NCBI RefSeq assembly: GCF_025244665.1
Contig: NZ_CP104205.1
Location: 1,423,001-1,487,000 of the forward strand
Length of the DNA: 64,000 nt
DNA from: Maribacter litopenaei
GTDB lineage: Bacteria; Bacteroidota; Bacteroidia; Flavobacteriales; Flavobacteriaceae
Direction of reading: 5' to 3'
Every line of letters starts with the position of its first letter. Position 1 is the stretch's first letter. Positions 38,525 to 47,091 of the stretch are shown here, piece by piece. The translations under genes were made by a program, and so were the position numbers. A model generated the notes under the pieces. That model saw nothing but the letters and a program-made list of their open reading frames with translations, did no database searches and was not told the DNA's origin.

Positions 38525-41307
38525 TTATAATTTTTCCTTAAGATATTTAGCCGTGTAGGATTTGGTGTTCTTAGCCACTTCCTCGGGTGTGCCCTCTGCT
38601 AAAAGTTGTCCACCGTTCTCACCGCCATCCGGATCAAGATCAATAATATAATCGGCACATTTAATAAGGTCTATATTGTGTTCGATAACCACAATGGAAT
38701 GTCCTTTTTTAATGAGTGCATTAAATGATTTTAGAAGTTTTTGGATATCATGAAAATGAAGTCCGGTGGTTGGTTCATCAAATATAAAAAGTGCTTTGTC
38801 CTTGGTAGCTCCCTTTACCAAAAAAGAGGCTAATTTAATTCGTTGCGCTTCGCCACCGGATAGGGTAGAGGAGGACTGCCCCAAGGTTACATAACCTAGA
38901 CCTACATCCTGTAAAGGTTTCAATTTGGCAACTATCTTATTTTGCAGGCCTGCTTCAAAGAAATATATGGCATCGTCAATGGTCATGTTCAAAATGTCAT
39001 CAATATTGCTGTCGTTAAAGGTGACCTCCAAAACATCTTTTTTAAATCGTTTTCCGGCGCACGTATCACATTCTAAATGAACATCGGCCATAAACTGCAT
39101 TTCTACAGTTATTTCTCCTTCTCCCTTACATTTCTCACATCGGCCTCCATCCACATTGAAGGAGAAATGTTTGGCCTGATAATTTCTGATCTTACTCAGT
39201 TTTTGACTAGCAAAAAGGTTTCGAATTTCGTCATAGGCCTTAATATAGGTAACTGGGTTGGAGCGTGAAGAACGACCTATAGGGTTTTGGTCAACGAATT
39301 CTACATGTTTAATATGTTTGTATTTTCCATTTACAGAACTAAACTGACCCGCCTTCTCACCATACCCCCCGGTTTCTTTAAGAATTATAGGATACAATAA
39401 CTTTTTTACCAAAGTGCTCTTACCACTTCCTGATACTCCAGTAACAACAGTGAGCATATCCAAGGGAAAGGTTACATTGATATTTTTTAAGTTATTGGCC
39501 CTGCAACCAATAATTTCAATATGGTTTTTAGAGGTTCTTCTTTCATTTGGCACTTTGATTTCTTTGGTACCATTTAAATAGCTAGCTGTTAGGGATGTGG
39601 ATTTTAAGATGTCTTCCATGGTACCCTGTGCTACAATATTTCCACCATGTGTTCCAGCTTCGGATCCTATATCGATAACTTCATCCGCAGCCTTCATGAT
39701 ATCCTCATCATGCTCCACTACAATGACGGTATTTCCCAAATCTCTGAGCGATAACAATACCTCAATGAGATTTTCGGTATCTTTTGGATGCAAGCCAATA
39801 CTGGGTTCGTCCAAGATGTACATTGAACCAACAAGGCTACTTCCCAATGAGGTTGCCAAATTTATCCGTTGGCTCTCACCCCCTGATAGTGTATTGGATT
39901 TTCTATTTAGGGTAAGGTAGCTAAGCCCTACTTTGTCCAGGAAACCCAATCTAGTATTTATTTCTTTTAAAAGCCTATTCGCTATTTTGGTATCGTGTTC
40001 GGAAAGGTCCAAATTTTCAAAAAATGGAGTCAAGCGCTCAATAGGAAGACCGACTAAATACGAAATAGATTTTCCACCAACTTTCACGTAATCCGTTTCA
40101 GTTCTTAGTCTCTTTCCATTACACAGATTACATTTTGTCTTTCCTCTGTAACGGGAGAGCATCACCCTATTTTGAATTTTATAGCTTTTTTCTTCAAGGG
40201 TTTCAAAGAATTTATGCAAACCAATAAAGTGTTTGTTTCCATCCCAAACTAATTCTTTTTGTTCTTCGGACAGTTCAAACCATGGTTTGTGAATGGGGAA
40301 ATCAAATTTATAGGCAGCATTTACCAATTGATCCCTATACCAGCTCATACTTTCACCGCGCCAAGGGAATACGGCATTTTCATAAATGGAAAGCGCAGTA
40401 TTAGGAATGACAAGGTCTTCATCAATACCTATTACATCGCCATAACCTTCGCATTTTGGGCAGGCCCCATAGGGATTGTTGAAACTGAATAGGTGAACAT
40501 TGGGTTCTAAAAATGTCATTCCATCCAATTCAAACTTATTGCTAAAAAGGCGTTGCTTGGAGTTAGACAACTCCTCAATGATACACTGTCCCTTACCTTC
40601 AAAATAAGCCGTATCCACTGCATTTGCCAACCGATTATAAAAATCTTCGTCATTCTTTGTTATTATCCTATCTATCACAAGATCAAATTCCTTTCCTATA
40701 TTTTCAGGCGCTTGGTCTATCCTTATGACTTTCCCTTGGTATTTGATTCGGCGTACCCCTGTTTGGAAAACAATTGAAGGGATTTTAGCGAATCCCTATC
40801 CTCTCGTATGGTAATGGGGGCAAGGAGCAACAATTTGGTATCCAACTCAAATGATTTAACATATTCAATGACATCGGATACGGTATTTTTTTTCACCTCA
40901 TTACCGTAAATTGGGGAAAAAGTCTTTCCAATGCGGGCATACAGCAGCTTTATATAATCATAAATTTCGGTTGTTGTGCCAACGGTAGACCTTGGATTGG
41001 TAGAATTTACTTTTTGTTCTATGGCAATCGCAGGAGCAATACCCTTTATATAATCGACTTTGGGTTTGTCTAATTTACCTAAAAACTGGCGTGCATAAGA
41101 CGATAGACTTTCTACATATCTACGTTGTCCCTCGGCAAATAATGTATCAAAGGCCAAACTTGATTTCCCCGAACCCGAAAGACCGGTGATGACCACTAAT
41201 TTATTTCTAGGAATTACCACATCAACATTCTTAAGATTGTGCAACTTGGCACCTTTTATAATGATGTTTTTTTTGGGGTCGACCTTTGATATTGTAGTCA
41301 TATTCAT
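38525..41307 (-). CDS. uvrA: Excinuclease ABC subunit A, frameshifted
   Basis: About 928 residues: two ABC ATPase modules ([15 protein letters not shown] near the N-terminus and [10 protein letters not shown] in the second half), two zinc fingers ([12 protein letters not shown] and [16 protein letters not shown]...CDTCAGKR) and signatures [16 protein letters not shown] and [15 protein letters not shown]. UvrA is the damage sensor of nucleotide excision repair. The frame breaks at 40748-40751 (TTCGGC on plus, expected TTCCGGC); repair gives [22 protein letters not shown]. Not essential in general but a real gene, so sequence error is favoured. Confidence 0.92.
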
Positions 41308-41395
41308 AATTAAAGCTGCAAAGATACAATATGGTATTCAGCTAAAAATTTAATTGGGACAATTCTAAATTATGGCTGTATTTTTTCACATTTTT

Positions 41396-41424
41396 TTTGG
41401 AGTATTTATTTTTTTATATATTTG
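41396..41424 (+). promoter_or_regulatory. Promoter of the first sigma-factor gene (TTTG ... TATATTTG)
   Basis: TATATTTG at 41417-41424 is a perfect TANNTTTG element; TTTG at 41396-41399 is 17 bases upstream as the -33 element. The gene starts at 41545, leaving a leader of about 115 bases. Confidence 0.55.
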
Positions 41425-41544
41425 AAACTTAATAAAAATGAAGAGCCTATAGCCTAAAATTACTTTTGCAGTTAGAAAAGAATTAAAAATCCAAGCGCTG
41501 GAAAGGCGTTCGGATTCAAATTTTAACCCACAAAAGTAAGGCTT

Positions 41545-42126
41545 ATGATACAGGCACTTGAAGACTCCCAACTAGTTAAGGACTATATGAACGGTAATGA
41601 AAGGGCCATCGAGGTTCTTATCAACCGTCACAATGCACGCTTGACCGGTTTCATCTATTCCAAAGTAGGGGACTGGGAATTAACCGAAGATATTTTTCAG
41701 GATACTTTCATGAAAGTAATACGTACGTTAAAACGTGGAGCGTATAATGAAGAGGGTAAATTTTTACCATGGGTAATGCGTATTGCCCACAATCTCATTA
41801 TAGACCATTTTAGAAAAAGCAATAGAATGCCCATGTGTGATGGTTCGGATTCCTTTAATATCTTTTCTTTAATGGGGGATGAAAAACTGAATGCCGAAAA
41901 GCAACTGATAAAGCAACAAATCGATACCGATTTGGTACGTATGATCAAGGAGCTACCGGAAGATCAACAAGAGGTACTACAGATGCGTCTATACAAGGAT
42001 ATGAGCTTTAAGGAAATTTCAGAAAATACTGGTGTAAGTATCAACACCGCCTTAGGTAGAATGCGCTATGCATTGATCAATCTTAGAAAACTGGTAGAGG
42101 CCAATAGTATAGTTTTAACGAATTAA
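41545..42126 (+). CDS. RNA polymerase sigma factor, sigma-70/ECF type, copy 1
   Basis: 193 residues. Region 2 is seen as LTEDIFQDTFMKVIRTLKRG...FLPWVMRIAHNLIIDHFRK and region 4 as LPEDQQEVLQMRLYKDMSFKEISENTG...RMRYALINLRK. It should direct RNA polymerase to a special promoter set. No FecR-type anti-sigma gene is adjacent; instead a 47-residue protein follows 73 bases downstream. The next sigma gene is a close paralogue of identical length, so the pair arose by tandem duplication. Confidence 0.92.
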   Translation: MIQALEDSQLVKDYMNGNERAIEVLINRHNARLTGFIYSKVGDWELTEDIFQDTFMKVIRTLKRGAYNEEGKFLPWVMRIAHNLIIDHFRKSNRMPMCDGSDSFNIFSLMGDEKLNAEKQLIKQQIDTDLVRMIKELPEDQQEVLQMRLYKDMSFKEISENTGVSINTALGRMRYALINLRKLVEANSIVLTN

Positions 42127-42199
42127 TTGGTAACAGGTCGAGTGGATCTACTATATTGAACCCGTTGACGTTTCTTAAGTGAAACAAATACGGAAGAAT

Positions 42200-42343
42200 A
42201 TGGAAAAAATTTACTCAACCAAGATTAATAAAGCAAAAGAAGTATCCGCAAAACCGGAAACCATTAAATTTTTGTTGGACTACTCAAAGTCACTCAAGAT
42301 TACGGAAGCAAAAGGCATCCAATTTGAAAGTAACTTGAACTAA
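42200..42343 (+). CDS. 47-residue protein downstream of sigma copy 1
   Basis: ATG at 42200, TAA at 42341-42343: MEKIYSTKINKAKEVSAKPE... ending KGIQFESNLN. It has no Cys, no membrane segment and is helical-looking (TIKFLLDYSKSL). The copy after the second sigma gene is also exactly 47 residues and shares 20 of 47 positions without gaps, including MEKIYS, TI-FLL, SK-L and the terminal F-E--LN. Such conservation in two copies shows that this is a real coding gene. Function unknown; a sigma-regulating peptide is a reasonable hypothesis. Confidence 0.78.
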   Translation: MEKIYSTKINKAKEVSAKPETIKFLLDYSKSLKITEAKGIQFESNLN

Positions 42344-42367
42344 AACATTTTCAATTATAGAATTTAG

Positions 42368-42402
42368 ACCCCGGGGAATTTTTTCCCGGGGTTTTGTTTT
42401 TT
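42368..42402 (+). terminator. GC-rich rho-independent terminator after the first sigma unit
   Basis: Stem accccggg (42368-42375) pairs with cccggggt (42385-42392), followed by tttt and a further T run. Confidence 0.87.
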
Positions 42403-42671
42403 ATCGATTAGCCTAACGGTAATTGAAGTTTGCGCCATCTTCATTTTATTCCAGCCTTTTTTTAATGGGCACAGGCAACTTATAAAATGTGCATTTATTG
42501 CATAGAAAATAGGTTTTCATGTTTTCACATCAAAAAAAGGCGTTTTTACAACATACTTTTTCCTACAGGGGGTGATTTATCTAGTTTTATATCACAATTG
42601 AACGACTAATTACAATTAATTAATAACCAAAATCAGGATCCCCACCCTGTCACCTAATGAAAGTAACTAAT
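42403..42671 (+). other. AT-rich gap before the second sigma gene
   Basis: No open frame of note was seen in these 269 bases. The region must carry the promoter of the second sigma gene, but no clear TANNTTTG/TTG pair could be picked out. It does contain the run tcaaaaaaaggcg and a G-rich caggggg. Confidence 0.4.
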
Positions 42672-43253
42672 ATGGAATTACAGATTGAAGATTCAGAACT
42701 AGTAAGAGATTATATCAGCGGCGATGAAAAAGCCTTGGAGATCCTTATCCATAGACATAATCAACGTATTACAAGCTTTATTTATTCAAAAGTTTTAGAT
42801 AGGGATATCACGGAGGATATTTTTCAGGATACCTTTATTAAGGTTATTAAGACTTTAAAAAAGGGCACCTACAGTGAAGAAGGTAAGTTTTTGCCTTGGG
42901 TGATGCGTATAGCTCATAACCTTATTATAGACCACTTTAGAAAAAACAAAAGAATGCCCATGTTCGAGGGGAACGAGGATTTTAATATCTTTTCTGTAAT
43001 TGGGGATGACAAGTTAAATGCTGAAAAGCAATTGATAAAAGATCAGATCGATACTGATTTAAGGGAATTAATTGAAGAATTACCTGATGATCAAAAAGAA
43101 GTTCTTGTAATGCGTATCTACAAAGATATGAGCTTCAAGGAAATTTCAGAAAATACAGGAGTGAGCATCAATACAGCTCTTGGAAGAATGCGATATGCGC
43201 TGATCAATCTTAGAAAGATTATTGAAAAACACAATATTGTCCTTACGAATTAG
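42672..43253 (+). CDS. RNA polymerase sigma factor, sigma-70/ECF type, copy 2
   Basis: 193 residues from ATG at 42672; a longer in-frame start five codons upstream is possible, but this one aligns with copy 1. Same region 2 (DITEDIFQDTFIKVIKTL...FLPWVMRIAHNLIIDHFRK) and region 4 (LPDDQKEVLVMRIYKDMSFKEISENTG). It differs from copy 1 mostly in the N-terminus and in the linker between regions 2 and 4, suggesting that the two sigma factors have diverged somewhat. Followed 69 bases later by its own 47-aa partner gene. Confidence 0.92.
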   Translation: MELQIEDSELVRDYISGDEKALEILIHRHNQRITSFIYSKVLDRDITEDIFQDTFIKVIKTLKKGTYSEEGKFLPWVMRIAHNLIIDHFRKNKRMPMFEGNEDFNIFSVIGDDKLNAEKQLIKDQIDTDLRELIEELPDDQKEVLVMRIYKDMSFKEISENTGVSINTALGRMRYALINLRKIIEKHNIVLTN

Positions 43254-43322
43254 TCTTCTTTAAATAAGATAAACAATATTTCCTTTTGAGTTACGTTAAT
43301 TTAATGTAACAACAATGGAAAT

Positions 43323-43466
43323 ATGGAAAAAATTTACTCTAATTATCAGGAAAGAACCGAGTTTAAAAAGGTTTGCCCCAAGACAATCAATTTTTTGTTG
43401 AGTTTTTCAAAGGCATTATACGATGTCAAGTATAAGGACTTGGAGTTCGAAACTTTTTTAAACTAA
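43323..43466 (+). CDS. 47-residue protein downstream of sigma copy 2
   Basis: ATG at 43323, TAA at 43464-43466: MEKIYSNYQERTEFKKVC... ending KDLEFETFLN. Paralogue of the 47-aa protein at 42200 (same length, 20 identical positions). It lies in the same order and spacing behind its sigma gene. One Cys, no membrane segment. The conserved core is TI-FLL-(Y/F)SK-L. Confidence 0.78.
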   Translation: MEKIYSNYQERTEFKKVCPKTINFLLSFSKALYDVKYKDLEFETFLN

Positions 43467-43472
43467 AATATT

Positions 43473-43497
43473 GACCCGCTTAGCGGGTCTTTTTTTT
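43473..43497 (+). terminator. Terminator of the second sigma unit, overlapping the end of nth
   Basis: Stem gacccgc (43473-43479) pairs with gcgggtc (43483-43489), then a run of T. The minus-strand nth stop codon (43480-43482) lies in the loop, so the hairpin is shared with nth coding sequence. Confidence 0.85.
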
Positions 43498-44142
43498 ACT
43501 TAAATATTCGTCAATTACAGATTTCCTTCCAATGGTTTTGGTAATTATATCCTTTTCCAAATCCCAACCTCTTGCAGGCGAATAGTCCCTACCATACCAA
43601 ATGATTTGCAAGTGGAGGTCGTTCCATAACTCTTTGGGGAATAACCTCTTAGCATCTTTTTCAGTTTGGGCTACATTCTTTCCGTTAGAAAATCCCCAGC
43701 GGTACATCAACCTATGGATATGTGTATCCACAGGAAAGGCAGGCATACCAAATGCTTGGGAAACCACTACACTTGCAGTTTTATGGCCAACTGCGGGTAA
43801 CTCTTCTAAAAGATGAATATCCTTGGGAACTTCACCATTATATTTTTCAATCAAGATTTTTGAAAGTCCATGTATCCCTTTGGATTTCATAGGCGATAAC
43901 CCAACAGGTTTAATGATTTCCCTGATTTCCTCCACACTCATTTTTACCATTTCAAAAGGATTATCAGCCCGTTCAAAGAGAAGAGGGGTTATTTGGTTGA
44001 CCCTTACATCCGTACTTTGTGCGGACATCAATACCGCTATCAAAAGGGTGTACGGGTCTTTATGTTCCAGGGGAACCGGAATTGTTGGGTAGAGTTCCCG
44101 TAATTTGGAAATTGCAAATGATACTTTTTCCGCCTTCGTCAT
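43480..44142 (-). CDS. nth: Endonuclease III (Nth) without the iron-sulfur cluster cysteines
   Basis: 220 residues. The helix-hairpin-helix with catalytic Lys is LEELPAVGHKTASVVVS, and the catalytic Asp is in FPVDTHIHRLMYRWG. It removes oxidised pyrimidines in base excision repair. The C-terminus (WYGRDYSPARGWDLEKDIITK...) lacks the four Cys that hold the [4Fe-4S] cluster in E. coli Nth; similar cluster-less forms occur in flavobacteria as far as I recall. Intact frame. Confidence 0.9.
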   Translation of the reverse strand: MTKAEKVSFAISKLRELYPTIPVPLEHKDPYTLLIAVLMSAQSTDVRVNQITPLLFERADNPFEMVKMSVEEIREIIKPVGLSPMKSKGIHGLSKILIEKYNGEVPKDIHLLEELPAVGHKTASVVVSQAFGMPAFPVDTHIHRLMYRWGFSNGKNVAQTEKDAKRLFPKELWNDLHLQIIWYGRDYSPARGWDLEKDIITKTIGRKSVIDEYLSKKKTR

Positions 44143-44194
44143 TTTTGTTTAATTTTATAAAAATAATATTGAACAAAATATAAGATAATTGACT

Positions 44195-44647
44195 ATGAAA
44201 ACACTAAAAGAGGGGGATAAAGTTCCCGAATTTTCTGCCAAGGATCAAGATGGCAATACTATTAATTTATCTGATTATAGCGGAAAGAAGTTGATTGTTT
44301 TTTTCTATCCAAAGGCAAACACTCCTGGTTGTACTGCGGAAGCATGTAACTTAAGGGATAACTACAAATCATTGCAAGATGCTGGTTATGAGTTGCTAGG
44401 GGTAAGCGCGGATTCACAAAAAAAGCAGTCGAATTTTAAAAACAAATATGAATTTCCATTTCCCTTACTTGCAGATGAAGACCATACCGTCTTAAATATT
44501 TTTGGCGTTTGGGATCCGAAGAAATTTATGGGCAGGGAATACGATGGAATACACAGAAAAACTTTTGTTATAAACGAAGAAGGCAAAGTTTCCAAGGTTA
44601 TAGATAAAGTAAAGACTAAAGATCACGCCTCCCAATTGTTAGATTAA
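44195..44647 (+). CDS. bcp: Thioredoxin-dependent peroxiredoxin (Bcp/PrxQ)
   Basis: 150 residues from ATG at 44195 (an upstream TTG is in frame but unneeded). The peroxidatic Cys is in NTPGCTAEACNLRD together with the resolving Cys five residues later, which is the PrxQ pattern; the fold is thioredoxin-like with KEGDKVPEFSAKDQDG. It reduces peroxides in the cytoplasm using thioredoxin. Intact; the start is about 50 bases from the divergent nth start. Confidence 0.92.
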   Translation: MKTLKEGDKVPEFSAKDQDGNTINLSDYSGKKLIVFFYPKANTPGCTAEACNLRDNYKSLQDAGYELLGVSADSQKKQSNFKNKYEFPFPLLADEDHTVLNIFGVWDPKKFMGREYDGIHRKTFVINEEGKVSKVIDKVKTKDHASQLLD

Positions 44648-46148: not shown

Positions 46149-46315
46149 TCTAGTAGTTTATTTCAACAAAGTTATAAAGAAAGGGCAACCTAATAGCCAA
46201 TAGAATTAAAAAATTCCCGATTGTGATATTAATTACTCTTTAAAGATTCAATTGGAATTAACCTAATTTACATATGGGCCTTTCTTTTCTTAAATAAGGA
46301 GTAAATTTGAGGTCT

Positions 46316-47091
46316 ATGGAAGAAGGCTTAAGGATTACTTTTCTTGGAACGGGTACATCGCAAGGAATACCAATTATTGGTAGTTCACATCCCGTCTGTT
46401 TAAGTGAGGATTCTAGGGATAAAAGGCTTAGGGTTTCCGTACTTCTTTCCTGGGGAGCCTATAATTTTGTAATTGACTGCGGTCCGGATTTTAGGCAACA
46501 AATGTTAACAAATCAGGTAAATAGGTTGGATGGGATTCTATTTACACATGAACATTCAGATCATACAGCTGGTATAGATGACATTCGACCTTTTTTTTCA
46601 GGCAGGGCGACATTCCCATTTATGCCCATAAAAGGGTGGTAAAATCATTGAAAAGACGTTTTGATTATATATTTCAGGAAAAAGATCGGTACCCAGGCGC
46701 TCCGTCCGTAGCGATCAATTATGTAGAAAAAGATAAAAATTTTGAAATAGGTGACCGGTTGGTAACCCCAATTCAGGTAATGCATAATCGGCTAAAGGTT
46801 TTTGGATATCGCATTGGAGGCTTTACCTATTTGACTGATGTTAAATCAGTTGAGGAGGAGGAATTCGAAAAAATTGTGGGCACTAAGGTATTGGTAGTGA
46901 ATGCCTTGCGCATAGAGCCCCATCATTCCCATTTTAATTTAGAAGAGGCACTGACCTTTGTTGAAAGAGTAAAACCGCAAAGGGCCTATTTTACCCATAT
47001 CAGCCATCTGCTGGGATTTCATGCCGAAGTTGAAAAGAGTCTTCCGGAAAATGTACATTTGGCCCATGATAATCTTAGCATATCATTATAA
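46316..47091 (+). CDS. MBL-fold hydrolase (PhnP-like phosphodiesterase), one frameshift
   Basis: About 259 residues from ATG at 46316. The first half ends in the zinc motif FTHEHSDHTAGIDD; the second half carries VVNALRIEPHHSHFNLEEAL, YFTHISHLLGFH and further ligands. Members act as 1,2-cyclic phosphate phosphodiesterases (PhnP) or related hydrolases. The frame is lost in a run of eight T at 46591-46598 where nine are expected; repair gives RPFFFRQGDIPIYAHKRVVKSL. This is a homopolymer error rather than a CCGG-type one. A TAAATTTG element overlaps 46302-46309 just before the ATG. Confidence 0.82.

Follow-up and report, generated by a model that had tools for sequence, protein, structure and literature searches.

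Two ECF sigma factor genes, each followed by a small gene for a protein of 47 residues, stand in tandem in the genome of Maribacter litopenaei. Each of these units is probably a negative-feedback loop that is activated by the sigma factor and carries a minimal anti-sigma factor. At the sequence level, this reading is supported by conservation, selection, synteny, a promoter-like element, a leader RNA, and a homology series of the small protein. An earlier note on this DNA had not noticed the ECF-type promoter element in both gaps, the structured leader before sigma gene A, or the larger forms of the small protein elsewhere.

Two sigma factor units in the window

The window is a stretch of 64,000 nucleotides and is part of a single-contig genome of 3.86 Mb. 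Both units lie on its forward strand. In unit A, the ECF sigma factor A is encoded at 41545..42126 (Sigma70_r2 6.8e-15, Sigma70_r4_2 1.2e-10) and the small protein a at 42200..42343. In unit B, the ECF sigma factor B is encoded at 42672..43253 and was recognized by its open reading frame (ORF), its sigma domain matches, and its likeness to sigma A; the small protein b follows at 43323..43466. The two small genes were recognized as ORFs by their likeness to each other and their dN/dS values, and small b also by a family-wide sequence search. The start of sigma B was set at the ATG at 42672; with an alternative ATG at 42657, the protein would have 198 aa.

The main observations of the earlier note were confirmed. 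Both sigma genes encode 193 aa, and the 47-residue ORF, placed by the note 69-73 bases downstream, begins 73 nt after the stop of sigma A and 69 nt after the stop of sigma B. The small proteins are identical at 20 of 47 positions without gaps (E = 5e-11 in a single comparison), and the sigma factors at 143 of 189. The terminator claimed for each unit was found as well: a 13-bp stem with a T tail at 42366..42394 in unit A (fold z -3.4 against shuffles) and a terminator-like hairpin at 43473..43489 in unit B (z -4.3).

Both sigma factors are members of the ECF group, with PF04542 and PF08281 above gathering and TIGR02937 at 87-89 bits (cutoff 42.9). The NF058625 (GFO_1088) family, which we take to be linked to SigP of the PorXY pathway, is likewise one of Bacteroidota ECF sigma factors; it was rejected for the window sigmas, which reach 66-67 bits where the cutoff is 130.

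In a sigma tree of 33 rows, the separation of copies A and B was weak (support of 42/0, seen in 62% of bootstrap trees), so that a single duplication of the whole module is a likely origin of the A/B pair. The two-unit block lies between a uvrA-like gene on one side and an endonuclease III-like gene on the other. The uvrA-like gene (window 38525-41307, reverse strand) is broken into two ORFs of 194 and 717 aa. This break may reflect assembly indel errors: the assembly is a single contig, yet its completeness is just 81.68%. A second split gene is suggested by a pair of overlapping ORFs at 46307-47091.

Conservation and selection of the small gene

Purifying selection acts on the small ORFs, as the earlier note had proposed from their shared residues. 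Within the genus, the median dN/dS was 0.137 for small a (98 pairs) and 0.025 for sigma A, and 0.061 for small b (141 pairs) and 0.017 for sigma B. These values cover pairs with dS of 0.05-1.5 only, from 28 and 29 small-gene sequences of 29 loci.

Absence or non-conservation of the ORF beside orthologous sigma genes had been named in advance as the observation that would count against the proposal. The ORF was found next to 147 of 157 related sigma units of the family Flavobacteriaceae (143 loci), counting small-protein profile matches at E < 1e-5 with a start 20-170 nt past the sigma stop, and 123 of these 147 proteins end in LN. It is present in 89/89 units of the 80 named loci, which are the nearest 80 of 570 confirmed candidates (L and G numbers denote loci and genomes). 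Among the ten exceptions in the family, four hold a weak version (L154, L158, L197, L199) and one is doubtful (L201). At the remaining five (L162, L163, L164, L202, L203), which are the lowest-scoring sigma relatives, the profile search downstream detected no small ORF. L202 and L203, two extra sigma relatives in one genome (G151), have downstream a different protein, which is about 200 aa long and contains a hydrophobic segment.

With small b alone as the query, 131 of 149 family genomes gave a match at E <= 1, some weak chance matches included. Of 146 further genomes, taken as one genome per genus, 141 had the sigma factor at E <= 1e-40. In 11 other families of the order, the small ORF passes the E < 1e-5 threshold in 9 of 17 units. 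L214 and L216 (in G041 and G054), both from a single family of the order, have in place of the small gene TTG-start ORFs of 66 and 49 aa that show neither the LN tail nor the core motif. The class-wide sigma profile matched in 177 of 198 genomes and 111 of 121 genera, own family counted in.

A chance ORF is ruled out by selection and synteny. A known Pfam or NCBIfam family for the two 47-aa proteins was rejected, as no model reaches its cutoff. Small b gave two Pfam matches below cutoff (E 0.036 and 0.072), neither of them to an anti-sigma family. The curated anti-sigma models of Pfam and NCBIfam gave no match to the 47-aa proteins. The earlier note knew of no description of the protein; in agreement, no account of the small protein, the promoter, or the leader was found among the matches listed in a search of open-licence PMC papers.

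Longer relatives, some of them similar to anti-sigma factors

In other families of Bacteroidia, longer relatives of the small protein are encoded at the same place next to the same sigma factor. They form a length series that runs from 47-50 aa through 55-70 aa to forms of 70-90 aa, which have an anti-sigma-like N-terminus, and of about 174 aa, which have a membrane segment. Of 104 loci examined class-wide, 60 units were parsed, three of them from Flavobacteriaceae. The small protein has up to 50 aa in 10 of these units, 51-70 aa in 41, and more than 70 aa in 9; 48 end in N. Several of the 44 unparsed loci have other starts or an overlap with the sigma gene (L208, L211, L213, L375, L377, L378, L382, L385, L389), and L217 carries a weak small form. 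No such ORF was seen at other unparsed loci, such as L346, L360, L366, L369, and L372.

The forms of 55-70 aa have the common core P..TI..ILNYSKAL. Those of 70-90 aa start like M.KTFT..DLI.YIYNE and carry the core at their end. The two forms of about 174 aa (L375, L377) have a membrane stretch, and their start codon lies ahead of the sigma stop. When 11 long forms were scanned with NCBIfam, four gave anti-sigma matches, all below the curated cutoff. The membrane form L375 and the soluble L389 and L385 matched the anti-sigma factor model NF052375 (5.4e-8, 7.6e-4, and 6.8e-3, respectively), and L207 matched PRK13920, 'putative anti-sigmaE protein' (3.3e-3). These matches sit near the N-terminus of the models. 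L389 also touches zf-HC2 at 0.022, below cutoff. The other 7 of the 11, L377 included, gave no anti-sigma match, and Pfam gave no match of any kind above cutoff in ten long forms or in five more.

The 13 long and 23 shorter forms were joined end to end by hhalign (probability 97.4, E 1e-11), with a score helped by the LN tail common to some long rows. When they are aligned together with the longer forms, the 47-aa proteins are seen to retain the start, the helix-4 segment, and the C-terminal tail, and to be without the middle, the region of helices 1-3. The long and short profiles matched no solved anti-sigma structure among PDB sequences. The 47-aa protein thus aligned looks like a shrunken relative of an anti-sigma factor, and we infer that the Flavobacteriaceae form arose by loss from a longer form. 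The remark in the earlier note that no recognized anti-sigma gene is nearby holds in that no model reaches its cutoff; it needs amending in that the small protein itself has the look of a shrunken anti-sigma factor.

Couplings and fold models

The strongest couplings between the sigma factor and the small protein were R60-Y28, I26-L25, and Y14-S29, with z of 6.5, 6.4, and 5.5 (328 pairs, effective 121; rows restricted to small ORFs no longer than 92 aa with a final N, Q, D, or S). They tie the helix of the small protein to sigma region 2. Twelve full partner shuffles gave couplings of at most 3.9, and shuffles of partners within clusters gave up to 5.2 (34 clusters) and 6.3 (66 clusters). Since couplings survive the shuffling within clusters, relatedness explains part of the signal. 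Across ten settings, I26-L25 and Y14-S29 are always among the first eight, and R60-Y28 is in all but one. First place goes to other couplings in six settings (P96-A31 in four, A81-K13 in two), and Y14-S29 depends on 4 of the 328 rows. Judging by the helix spans of the L283 fusion model described below, sigma positions 26 and 60 would lie opposite one another on the 2.1/2.2 hairpin; their own coupling is not strong. The coupling evidence for a contact of the helix with sigma region 2 is suggestive.

Fusions of the sigma factor and the small protein were modeled for two pairs. The fusion of window pair B reached a pLDDT of 68 and a pTM of 0.37, with the small protein at about 50, and therefore gives no confident docking in the window's own pair. 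The Ichthyenterobacterium fusion (L283) reached a pLDDT of 72 and a pTM of 0.50, with 92 in the block of the small helix and 77-85 in the hairpin, values that concern the fold and not the docking. In both models, the small protein is one helix plus a hairpin, confidently so in the L283 model only. When the L283 fusion was searched with Foldseek, the top listed matches were the sigma chains of the AlgU-MucA, sigmaE-RseA, and SigW-RsiW complexes. Binding of the small protein to the sigma factor is therefore proposed on the region 2 couplings and one of the two fold models. The description of the 47-aa protein as a candidate sigma-binding or sigma-modulating peptide fits the couplings to sigma region 2 and the anti-sigma likeness of its positional relatives.

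An ECF-type promoter element before the small gene

The gap between the sigma gene and the small gene carries a putative promoter element. It is ACAATA-N15-CGTTA before small b (43273..43298) and CTATA-N13-CGTT before small a (42151..42172), the latter with a variant spacing that occurs in 9 of 91 family units. By its letters, the element has the two boxes, the fixed spacing, and the CGT in the -10 box of an ECF promoter. The pattern [CT][AT]AT.-N13-17-CGTT was found in the gap of 83 of the 91 units, compared with 1.9% of mononucleotide shuffles. Its spacing is N15 in 72 of the 83, N13 in nine, N14 in one, and N16 in one. CGTT alone is present in 90/91. Class-wide, CGTT stands within the final 60 nt of the gap in 58 of 60 units (7.6 expected), and [CA]AATA-N15-CGTT in 36 of 60 (0.02 expected). 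The element is kept in the high-GC locus L331 and across the 358-nt gap of L338. Because a terminator-like hairpin stands between the sigma gene and this promoter in 7 of the 60 class-wide units, the small gene is probably transcribed separately from the sigma gene, from a putative promoter of its own.

A GGTCGAG block lies soon after the stop of sigma A (window 42136-42142) and in the A units of L251-L263. GGTCGA or CGTCGA is present in the single-copy units L259-L262, and the block was not seen in the B units examined.

In 12 genomes, ACAATA-N15-CGTTA was matched 39 times and its reversed control 32 times, and 8 of the 39 belong to the small gene. As the strict element is hardly above control elsewhere, no wider regulon was found. 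Thirty of the 39 matches were examined as loci, among them a set of near-identical matches inside one long ORF, and no gene but the small one recurs at promoter distance. The regulon is therefore very small, unless its other targets have sites of a looser form.

These data bear on two other readings. The small protein could be one of the products of the sigma regulon, acting as an effector or regulating something else, and stand beside the sigma gene by chance. In favor of this, the small gene has an ECF-type promoter element of its own and, in some units, a terminator-like hairpin before it, and the window fold model leaves the small protein undocked on the sigma factor. This reading is nevertheless unlikely: anti-sigma-like proteins are encoded at the same position in other families, the couplings map largely to sigma region 2, and the search for the strict promoter turned up no further target. 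It is quite unlikely that CAATA-N15-CGTT is read by another ECF sigma factor, so that the module is cross-wired and not self-regulating. In favor of such cross-wiring, an element of this type occurs upstream of the sigma gene itself at chance level (4 of 90 against 3.6 expected), and in F. psychrophilum, with 7 ECF sigma factors, a class of CGT-box promoters is given as one that the authors could not assign, in the cited part of PMC9723704. Against cross-wiring, the element accompanies the sigma-small pair class-wide at near-constant spacing.

Comparison with known anti-sigma factors

The feedback loop with a minimal anti-sigma factor was compared with known systems. As with the class I anti-sigma domains (ASDI: RseA, ChrR, RsiW), the gene adjoins an ECF sigma gene, an anti-sigma likeness is seen in some of the long forms encoded at this place, and the conserved helix of the small protein stands in the position of helix 4, with suggestive couplings to sigma region 2. 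Helix 4 of class I domains binds the sigma 2.1/2.2 area, as described in the cited part of PMC7406223. Unlike class I proteins, the 47-aa form lacks helices 1-3 and a membrane segment, and has a promoter element apart from the sigma gene. In place of a three-helix bundle with helix 4, the two models show one helix and a hairpin.

The minimal class II anti-sigma factors CnrY and NepR are likewise short and without the three-helix bundle (PMC7406223 and PMC8103513, in the parts cited). The 47-aa protein differs from them in having one helix and a predicted hairpin, not two helices that embrace sigma2 and sigma4, in being traceable to ASDI-like forms, and in giving no sequence match to them among PDB sequences. 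In EcfO-Reo of Bacteroides/Phocaeicola, a Bacteroidota ECF sigma factor also has a non-classical partner; Reo is said, in the cited part of PMC13114119, to span all compartments from the cytoplasm to the surface, and the partner here has 47 aa and no membrane segment.

The missing part is the one that contacts sigma4 in class I domains, and the unusually constant LN tail could be a protease or chaperone signal. Both features would suit a small protein that binds the sigma factor and yet helps it, as a co-activator, a stabilizer, or a degradation tag. We regard this as improbable, as some homologs look like inhibitors and class I helix 4 covers the polymerase-binding face (PMC7406223, in the part cited).

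A structured leader RNA on the sigma A transcript

Upstream of sigma gene A, a putative housekeeping -7 box lies at 41417..41424 (TATATTTG at 41417), of the sigmaA type whose consensus is given as TAnnTTTG in the cited part of PMC9723704. Boxes like TATATTTG were seen, without a count, upstream of many among 90 sigma genes. The box is followed at 41445..41547 by a conserved structured leader RNA, with the 3' arm of its outer stem just ahead of the start codon. The pattern, GCCTATAGCATAA-ATTACTTTT...AAAAGTAAT right before the ATG, is found in copy A and in single-copy relatives.

The fold of the window leader has a z of -3.6 against shuffles. The covariance model, partly built from the window sequence itself, gave 52.4 bits for the window leader (E 3.4e-8 by cmsearch) and one strong copy in the window. 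In 35 sequences, picked because they carry the leader, 93.1% of the cells of the outer stem are paired and both sides have changed in 6 of 10 pairs; the covariation score was reached by 0 of 500 shuffles. By pattern, the leader is absent from 11 of 88 named units. Nine of these are B copies, and L268 and L304 look like pattern misses; copy B of the window is without the leader by the same pattern. Each of 9 Maribacter genomes gave a single match to the leader model, as did G037; G040 gave two weak matches, and G038 and G039 gave none. On 81 further loci, it gave 50 matches at E <= 0.1, some of which are the opposite strand of the same site. Rfam gave no match over the leader at E <= 1 (window 41000-44200). 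An Rfam identity was rejected: the weak hits in 8 loci and window 41000-44200 were below gathering, the best (E 0.0028) over the terminator of unit A and none on the leader.

Because the leader stem abuts the start codon, translational control of the sigma gene is the natural reading. The single-copy relatives L259-L262 hold the leader, the GGTCGA-like block, and a CAATATTTCC-like box together, and the Maribacter copies A and B share these out between them. This suggests that the duplicates have split the control features.

The small ORF is short and the elements around it act at the RNA or DNA level, but that the ORF is untranslated and its conserved stretch works as RNA is hardly credible, given dN/dS of 0.06-0.14 and amino acids conserved across families.

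Proposed mechanism and significance

In the feedback loop that we favor, the sigma mRNA would be made by the housekeeping polymerase. In copy A and the single-copy relatives, the hairpin leader beside the start codon would hold back sigma translation. Once made, the sigma protein would use CAATA-N15-CGTT as the promoter from which to transcribe the small gene. The 47-aa protein would act as a minimal anti-sigma factor, its single helix docking on sigma region 2.1/2.2, where RNA polymerase would bind, and inhibiting the sigma factor. Higher sigma activity would thus lead to more inhibitor, and the sigma factor would limit itself. The small protein may descend from a soluble class I anti-sigma domain or have a common ancestor with one; helices 1-3 would have been lost, and the MxKx[YF][ST] N-terminus, the helix-4 segment, and the C-terminal LN tail kept.

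In the cited part of a 2020 survey (PMC7406223), a class I anti-sigma neighbor was reported for 6% of Bacteroidetes ECF sigma factors, compared with 32% overall. The same part gives ECF03, one RpoE-like group of Bacteroidetes, as having no conserved anti-sigma factor, and states that anti-sigma domains under 50 aa were dropped from the set. Taken as a whole, the picture has somewhat less than an even chance of being right, and is put forward tentatively: a Bacteroidia-wide ECF sigma factor regulated by an overlooked, shrinking family of anti-sigma factors, of 47 residues in Flavobacteriaceae, which are made from a promoter of their own driven by the sigma factor and coupled to a leader RNA of a new kind that controls translation of the sigma mRNA.

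If true, the 47-residue form of Flavobacteriaceae would be among the smallest anti-sigma factors, and the graded series from a membrane anti-sigma factor to 47 aa would show a domain pared to a single sigma-contacting helix. The leader and the promoter would serve as ready-made assays. The family would also fill part of the reported anti-sigma gap in Bacteroidota. Should the 47-aa family have this regulatory role, that gap would become testable with one peptide, and part of it would be due to partners that are too small and too worn to be recognized.
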